A model generated the notes under the pieces. That model did no database searches, was not told where the DNA came from, and worked only from the letters and a program-made list of their open reading frames with translations. Positions 44,764-44,914 of a DNA stretch of 64,000 nt are shown in pieces. Position numbers and translations under genes: made by a program. This stretch comes from an uncultured Bacteroidales bacterium (GTDB lineage Bacteria; Bacteroidota; Bacteroidia; Bacteroidales; F082), in NCBI GenBank assembly GCA_900317055.1, contig ONFF01000007.1, forward strand, positions 1 to 64,000, given 5' to 3'. The number at the start of each line of letters is the position of its first letter. Position 1 is the stretch's first letter.

Positions 44764-44772
44764 GCAAAAATA
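44764..44772 (-). promoter_or_regulatory. -7 promoter element of the second DUF4143 gene
   Basis: Minus-strand TATTTTTGC. At the -33 position the sequence is GTTTC, which belongs to the first palindrome of the array (44781-44796), so the operator covers the space between the promoter elements. Confidence 0.65.
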
Positions 44773-44780
44773 AGCAAAAT

Positions 44781-44914
44781 GTTCAATATACGAAACATTT
44801 AAAATGGAAATTTGTTTTGTATACTGAACATTTATATGATAAATAAACCTAAAACAAGGAAGAATGTTTCACGTATTGAACGGTTTTATATTAAATCTGT
44901 TCAATATATTGAAC
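44781..44914. repeat. four-palindrome operator-like array, 33-bp spacing
   Basis: Four 16-base dyads occur: GTTCAATATACGAAAC (44781-44796), GTTTTGTATACTGAAC (44814-44829), GTTTCACGTATTGAAC (44866-44881) and GTTCAATATATTGAAC (44899-44914, perfect palindrome). Centre-to-centre distances are 33, 52 and 33 bases. Consensus GTTY....TA....RAAC, usually flanked by AT before and ATTTA after. Confidence 0.9.

Follow-up and report, generated by a model that had tools for sequence, protein, structure and literature searches.

Private phased repeat arrays upstream of PDC-S01/DUF4143 ATPase genes suggest self-recognising, autoregulated modules

The PDC-S01/DUF4143 ATPases of the subfamilies analysed here are probably self-recognising, autoregulated modules made of an AAA+ domain, a winged helix and a nuclease-like domain. 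Repeat arrays upstream of the genes, fixed spacing, private array sequences, covariation with recognition residues, cassette behaviour and a variable insertion spot were all observed computationally. What we propose beyond this is that the proteins bind DNA, assemble, repress, are released, act as nucleases, avoid cross-talk and serve in defence. The array covaried with the DNA-reading part of the protein, and each protein therefore most probably recognises its own gene and controls it. The analysis started from two ATPase genes in the window (the whole stretch of 64,000 nucleotides analysed, from an uncultured Bacteroidales bacterium), which the initial annotation had suggested might form an undescribed system.

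The window ATPases and their arrays

The features of the two loci were as follows (strand given where it applies).
43535..44737, minus strand: AAA_14, winged-helix and PD-(D/E)XK-like ATPase, 400 aa, PDC-S01 candidate (Pfam, PADLOC, AF2); “window ATPase” in the text
44270..44647, minus strand: AAA+ (AAA_14) domain, residues 31-156 (Pfam; Foldseek matches RuvB, RFC, Cdc6/Orc1)
43811..44032, minus strand: winged-helix domain, residues 236-309 (AF2 secondary structure)
43892..43930, minus strand: predicted recognition helix, residues 270-282 (AF2; covaries with array sequence)
43538..43810, minus strand: C-terminal PD-(D/E)XK-like region, residues 310-400, with D349, E359 and K365 (residue conservation)
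44765..44772, minus strand: -7-like element TATTTTTG (consensus match only)
44792-44795, minus strand: -33-like element TTTC (consensus match only)
44780..44797: dyad 1, TGTTCAATATACGAAACA, 6/9 complementary pairs, covering the -33-like element
44813..44830: dyad 2, TGTTTTGTATACTGAACA, 7/9 complementary pairs
44865..44882: dyad 3, TGTTTCACGTATTGAACG, the weakest of the four, 4/9 complementary pairs
44898..44915: dyad 4, TGTTCAATATATTGAACA, perfect, 9/9 complementary pairs
12821..14161, minus strand: second AAA_14-DUF4143 ATPase, 446 aa, with a D..ExK nuclease motif (Pfam; PDC-S01 E 4.5e-96); “14.2-kb gene” in the text
14208..14334: 33-bp tandem array of the 14.2-kb gene, family D1, unrelated in sequence to the window dyads

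Both ATPases contained an AAA_14 domain (Pfam E 1.9e-27 in the window ATPase) and matched the PADLOC PDC-S01 profiles, judged by E-value (3.5e-28 over residues 23-323 for the window ATPase, 4.5e-96 for the 14.2-kb gene). The DUF4143 (PF13635) score was 24.8 bits for the window gene, below the cut-off of 28.1, and 63.1 bits for the 14.2-kb gene, above it. No PDB relatives were found by sequence at E up to 1. The AF2 model of the window ATPase (pLDDT 94.2, from an alignment of 53 sequences) showed an AAA+ domain, a winged helix with helices 236-252, 259-266 and 270-282 and predicted wing strands 286-289 and 304-307, followed by a C-terminal alpha/beta region; its top 50 Foldseek matches were AAA+ folds only, with RuvB, RFC and Cdc6/Orc1 at a TM-score of ~0.3.

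In A1, E359 and K365 were invariant and D349 almost so. The D..ExK motif was present in 30/30 members of the family of the 14.2-kb gene, in 68/69 of the family with 23-bp arrays and, by a looser pattern, in 28/28 of the 22-bp family. The window subfamily carried D[FL]..E[VI]GGxxK (D..ExGG..K) in 89/94 relatives; with the usual ExK lysine lost, the nuclease-like domain of the window gene may be inactive.

Upstream of the minus-strand window gene, the four dyads described by the initial annotation were recovered as 18-bp units, centred at 44788.5, 44821.5, 44873.5 and 44906.5 and thus spaced 33, 52 and 33 bp. Its placement of the first dyad at the promoter agreed with the sequence as well, dyad 1 lying over the -33-like TTTC and ending 7 bp above the -7-like TATTTTTG on the minus strand. 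This is the overlap of operator and own promoter expected of an autorepressor, for promoter elements that are consensus matches and which we presume from the Bacteroidota consensus. The array of the 14.2-kb gene was, again as first described, unrelated in sequence and yet also spaced 33 bp. Dyad symmetry by itself was at chance level (214/1000 shuffles gave as many dyads of at least 7/9 pairs), whereas four related 18-mers within 200 bp above the ATG were matched by 1/1000 dinucleotide shuffles; it is therefore repetition, not symmetry, that sets this array above chance.

In the 3.53-Mb genome, the window motif GTTYNNTATRNNGAAC (at most 1 mismatch) was not enriched (36+34 sites vs. 58+50 for the reversed control), no second place had two sites less than 150 bp apart, and no trans targets were seen. 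The array did not resemble a CRISPR array (units of 16-18 bp; no cas family among seven scanned window proteins), nor did the locus resemble a toxin-antitoxin operon, no separate antitoxin gene being present beside the ATPase among ORFs of at least 80 aa. The ATPase gene ended 3 bp from a convergent ParE-type gene, and the nearest upstream ORF of at least 80 aa on the same strand (45354-46052) lay beyond the array. This ORF, on the minus strand, encoded a GIY-YIG protein; a short stretch at 45032-45143 contained the inverted repeat TCGGAAATCCCG, and parts of these recurred after the ParE-type gene in other genomes.

Distribution, spacing and sequence of the arrays

A homologue of the window gene was found in at least 46 of 60 same-genus genomes. 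Repeats at lag 32-34 (at least 14/16) were present in 60/94 upstream regions of these homologues, among the matches listed, vs. 3/150 controls, which were taken from twenty 20-kb segments of the genome that contains the window and from the window itself. The homologues comprised 30 loci and 60 further matches, among the matches listed; the genus set held 95 genes, one being dropped for its short upstream region, and counted the window gene twice (L023 and L026), L023 being omitted from the later sets. By the score used, 13/94 genes had no array. After removal of relatives with at least 90% identity, arrays remained in 29/46 genes of the window subfamily (controls 3/150) and, at their own lags, in 15/22, 45/46 and 18/21 genes of three other subfamilies (controls 3 to 5 of 150), with Fisher p values of 1e-7 to 1e-37 in the non-redundant sets. 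The enrichment of ~33-bp repeats before DUF4143 genes which the initial annotation predicted was thus observed (29/46 non-redundant genes).

The genome of the window gene encoded 25 DUF4143 matches, and repeats private to each gene were legible before many of them. Outside the window subfamily, 12/20 DUF4143 genes scored at least 13/16 at lag 21-23 or 32-34 (controls 10/150), and the same proportion of these 20 reached 15/16 at any lag (controls 7/150). Among named and viral loci, the named ones spanning several phyla besides Bacteroidetes, 16/59 had an array once relatives with at least 90% identity were removed (11/72 loci left out of the set). Of 23 usable non-Bacteroidota DUF4143 loci (7/30 left out), three had strong repeats at 32-34 and three at 21-23 (at least 14/16), L226 from Methanobrevibacter among them, and a tandem array was absent at several high-scoring genes (L208, L211, L212). 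Two DUF4143 genes with no tandem array, L215 (Campylobacteraceae) and L223 (Sulfurovum), had a TATAAT box flanked by the inverted repeat AACCACGCTA...TAGCGTGGTT, which may be a two-site form of the same control.

Spacing was set by the ATPase subfamily at 22, 23 or 33 bp. At a score of at least 13/16, relatives of the 14.2-kb gene had lag 33 in 27/30 cases and lag 21-23 in none; relatives of L005 had lag 23 in 28/29 and those of L008 lag 22 in 27/28 (1/30 and 2/30 loci left out), with none at 32-34 in either set. Controls reached this score in 5/150 cases at lag 21-23 and in 5/150 at 32-34. When 40 more paralogues and a second copy from the genome itself were added to the L005 family, 70/70 genes had an array, the best lag again being 23 (22-24 tested). 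The conserved geometry that was first proposed therefore stands within a subfamily and fails as a general 33-bp rule.

The sequence of the repeats was unlike between clades, and motif similarity rose with protein identity in four subfamilies, though unevenly (Spearman 0.18, 0.42, 0.20 and 0.35): from 0.26 in pairs below 40% identity to 0.56 at 80-90% in the window subfamily, and from 0.20 to 0.73 in the subfamily of the 14.2-kb gene. Covariation was analysed in 147 genes past length filters, 111 of which had a clear motif, 73 being left after removal of relatives with at least 90% identity. Among 2567 window-subfamily pairs below 62% identity, 16 shared a motif, and in these the excess identity, corrected for overall identity, peaked at residues 269-281, the top-ranked of 377 residue windows. 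The scan was blind to helix position, and its peak matched the AF2 helix 270-282. The same residues ranked first whichever of four thresholds was applied, and again when the pairs were reduced to 14 vertex-disjoint ones. Their value was reached at that place by 0/2000 gene-label permutations at both thresholds, and anywhere in the protein by 0/2000 and 1/2000 (permutations with fewer than 5 sharing pairs were scored as not reaching it), values which are uncorrected for the choice of this test, the one that separated protein regions, after two weaker ones. The first of these, with fixed 18-mer motifs, gave Spearman values of 0.05-0.13 with domain identity and put no domain ahead; it was replaced by score-delimited segments, on which a per-column scan was weak, with the recognition helix and the Walker A region jointly at the top. 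The covariation of repeat sequence with the winged helix that the initial annotation suggested looking for was thus located in the recognition helix.

In the 23-bp family, the 69 repeat consensuses, aligned on the same strand, shared the frame GCCAA and varied in their core; the repeats were unidirectional and the consensus had no evident dyad symmetry. Position 3 of the repeat was C with Arg283 in 58/62 genes and A with Gln283 in 7/7, Gln283 occurring in two clades ~47% identical. By profile alignment, residue 283 would lie opposite residue 300 of the window ATPase, between the wing strands; usual base contacts are Arg-G and Gln-A. The scan of residue windows was not significant in this family (its maximum was reached by 86/500 permutations), and single residue-base couplings stood out, several of the strongest (343, 328, 51) lying outside the winged helix. 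A possible exclusion of like specificities within a genome (a motif was shared by 0/133 pairs within vs. 58/2282 between genomes) was dropped, the latter figure being inflated by orthologues; L097 and L108, two window-subfamily genes 98.5% identical in the same genome, had like arrays. Of the initial claim that each ATPase recognises its own array, enrichment and recognition-helix covariation speak in favour, and the DUF4143 genes with no array limit its reach.

Promoter position, proposed mechanism and known relatives

In genes having both an array and a -7 element, the array lay over the -33/-7 core in 67/80 members of the window subfamily and in 22/27, 23/66 (23-bp family) and 22/26 of the other three; it was entirely downstream of -7 in 4/80 and 4/26 genes of two subfamilies, and 43/66 judged arrays of the 23-bp family stopped just above -33. 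This position suits repression best, with activation possible in the 23-bp family, and autoregulation by a phased oligomer is therefore favoured.

In the mechanism we propose, the winged helix of each ATPase would read a private operator present in about two to eight copies at its own promoter. As the spacings of 22, 23 and 33 bp amount to two or three helix turns, ATPases on successive sites would share one face of the DNA and could assemble through their AAA+ domains. The docked oligomer would most likely repress its own promoter and itself be restrained. Were it released, whether through array dilution, nucleotide state or a signal from a phage, the gene would be expressed and the nuclease-like domain could act. 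Gene and array would be inherited or exchanged jointly and would settle in a spot common to defence- and toxin-antitoxin-like genes, and operator and recognition residues would diverge together, so that many paralogues might coexist in one genome with no cross-talk.

This self-recognition model is supported by the array enrichment, the subfamily-specific spacing, the correlation of motif with protein identity, the peak at 269-281 and the Arg/Gln283-C/A switch, and also by the promoter overlap, the reverse look-up in viral sequences and the homology confined to gene and array (both below). Counted against it were the 23-bp arrays above -33, which suit activation equally, and the non-significant residue-window scan of that family; the 13/94 genes with no array, the lost ExK lysine and L208, L211 and L212 with no tandem arrays; and the dyads of L406 and L407 with no DUF4143 gene, the solo arrays and the homology of L028 and L029 beyond gene and array (all three below).

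Several known systems share parts of this design. Plasmid iterons are ~22-bp sites repeated in tandem with helical phasing, to which the winged-helix initiator encoded by the plasmid binds; the DUF4143 sites differ in lying at the promoter of the gene itself. Operons of the HipBA toxin-antitoxin type are autoregulated through an operator at their own promoter, and HipBA-like genes occupied the same insertion spot as the window ATPase in four relatives (by eye), but the latter has no separate antitoxin gene of at least 80 aa beside it. Cdc6/Orc1, RuvB and RFC, which to our knowledge have no nuclease-like domain, were among the best Foldseek matches, the Cdc6/Orc1 chain coming from an origin-bound structure, with TM-scores of only ~0.3 to the window ATPase model.

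The closest relative is PDC-S01, whose profiles both window proteins match. In the available part of one survey, PDC-S01 is a PADLOC phage-defence candidate consisting of a single gene, an ATPase fused to a PD-(D/E)XK domain; it is described there as fourth in frequency among the defences of prokaryotes, counting 9,986 cases in archaea and 29,494 in bacteria (about 39,500 detected copies), and experimental validation is pending for most such candidates (PMC12988326). It is also the most frequent single locus in rumen genomes, according to the portion accessible of a second study (PMC13356809). No mention of its own upstream arrays was found in the available parts of either source, and the main text of the former does not contain “operator”, “promoter”, “winged” or “autoregulat-”; private arrays are likewise not described in the part at hand of PMC4158269. 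RptR, as far as the available text goes, represses a defence island through repeats (PMC12255303), but this small regulator is a separate protein and has a single conserved site, whereas the PDC-S01 ATPase would itself read a clade-specific one. Nothing else relevant was found on upstream repeats of DUF4143, COG1373 or PDC-S01 in the literature searched, most subscription papers and preprints lying outside it. An autoregulated defence-like module is therefore a known kind; a family whose clades each carry and read their own phased operator is, as far as searched, undescribed. The initial description of an undescribed system is accordingly narrowed to the private arrays, of which the accessible sources gave no mention, the protein itself matching PADLOC PDC-S01. 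The arrays provide a molecular handle, giving for each protein an expected target, place and spacing and candidate base-reading residues, and together they form a natural collection of differing operator/reader pairs. Private arrays are also a possible reason why 25 DUF4143 matches coexist in one genome.

Solo arrays, cassettes and alternative readings

Reverse look-up of array motifs led back to the ATPases. In a viral collection, a pair of the 22-bp motif matched one contig, which itself encoded the matching ATPase, and the pattern of a third clade had 0 matches. The 22-bp pair was present in 26/80 genomes, with 0 control matches, and 20 of its 30 places were just upstream of an ATPase; L417 was at a contig end with an ATPase start, and L410 and L416, also at contig ends, could not be judged. 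Seven places had no full ATPase (L408, L409, L411-L415): L409 and L414 were solo arrays at the locus of L305, L411-L413, at the locus of L306, retained no more of the ATPase gene than 88 bp of its 3' end, and in L415 the N-terminal part was missing. The window-type pair was found in 9/80 genomes with the ATPase downstream in eight, and L420 had kept the dyads next to only a C-terminal scrap of ATPase. Between L411-L413, solo arrays differed at 1-2/84 positions vs. 7-18/122 in the adjacent relic (Fisher p 0.009, 0.15 and 0.003) and 21-27/294 in the upstream DNA (p vs. array 0.009, 0.04 and 0.13), the pairs not being independent. As divergence was lower in the array than in relic or upstream DNA, there are hints of selection on the solo array itself. 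One reading of the private array, which we consider unlikely, is an identity tag and antidote at once, the ATPase-nuclease being harmless when docked and active once the array is lost, out-titrated or replaced by that of an invader. If so, each cassette would be a single-gene unit of addiction or superinfection immunity that has a specificity class to itself, and solo arrays would be protective relics, like solitary antitoxins.

Gene and array behaved as a transferable unit. The spot which they occupy was bordered by two genes:
41603..43531, plus strand: gyrase-B/ParE-type gene, left edge of the variable insertion spot
46852..49002, plus strand: prolyl oligopeptidase (Peptidase_S9), right edge of the variable insertion spot

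Homology to L027 (96.5% protein identity) was limited to 43524-44918, and that to L030-L032 (87-88%) spanned the stretch between the stop codon and dyad 4, the gene with its array; in 4/6 close relatives it ended in or just past dyad 4. In the other two it went beyond gene and array (42038-45143 for L028; 43434-44964 and 44991-45143 for L029). Less than 200 bp of upstream DNA was shared by 18/45 pairs with at least 95% identity, and more by the rest. The spot between the ParE-type and Peptidase_S9 genes was closed, with the peptidase within ~80 bp, in 7/30 loci (L377, L387, L392, L393, L395-L397). It held the window ATPase in 2/30 (the window itself and L380), another DUF4143 gene in L379 and L384 and, by eye from translations, HipBA-like (L370-L372, L376), methyltransferase-like (L374, L382, L390), RT-like (L386) or RhuM-like genes (L373, L375). 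These comparisons support a transferable cassette of gene and array in a variable defence/toxin-antitoxin-like spot. Of the mobility initially suggested, the cassette (4/6 relatives, 18/45 pairs) survives, and no mobilising machinery was found among the seven scanned window proteins.

We consider it improbable that the array is part of a mobile element, such as end-like mobilisation sites of the sort that repeats provide for transposases. The limits of homology to L027 and L030-L032, at the array on one side and at or close to the stop codon on the other, the 18/45 pairs, the variable spot and partial copies of the ParE-gene end in two genomes would all fit this; the array is nevertheless on one side only, the genome of the window had a single match to the ParE-gene end and showed no copies of the motif cluster dispersed elsewhere, and unrelated genes of HipBA-like, methyltransferase-like and RT-like type (by eye) use the spot as well. 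The partial copies were second ParE-type 3' ends of 98 and 73 bp beyond the inserted gene in L422 (G030:C25) and L423 (G049:C18), and the left junction was alike in both genomes.

Binding of the array by the ATPase is itself a prediction, and some arrays end just above -33 like activator sites, so that host regulators could instead bind the arrays, whose diversity would reflect many regulators of a costly gene. We regard this as quite improbable, given that spacing follows the ATPase subfamily, that array sequence follows the recognition helix and one wing residue, and that the window motif forms a cluster nowhere else in the genome. Action in RNA, as 5'-leader hairpins or an attenuator, would suit the dyads below -7 and the arrays wholly downstream in 4/80 and 4/26 genes of two subfamilies, but it is very improbable, since most arrays extend above the promoter and would be at least partly untranscribed, and since the 23-bp repeats, all of one orientation, show no evident dyad symmetry in their consensus. 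It is hardly credible that the array arose in AT-rich intergenic DNA by chance or as a mutational tandem duplication: the upstream regions are AT-rich and 3/150 controls had similar scores at 32-34, but the lag is fixed within and different between subfamilies, and Fisher p values were 1e-7 to 1e-37 in non-redundant sets.

Two near-identical phage contigs (L406:411-459 and L407:3175-3223) carried two window-like GTTCGGTATAGTGAAC dyads 33 bp apart and no DUF4143 gene, which shows that this geometry also occurs outside the family; the dyads lay near a terminase-like gene (by eye). A reading of this pair as a phage decoy was rejected, and the dyads were taken as the sites of another regulator. 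In a control region (L119:6197, plus strand), a REP-associated-transposase-like gene (by eye) was preceded by GTCCGAC...GTCGGAC palindromes with 33-bp spacing; this element, apparently unrelated, shares the geometry.
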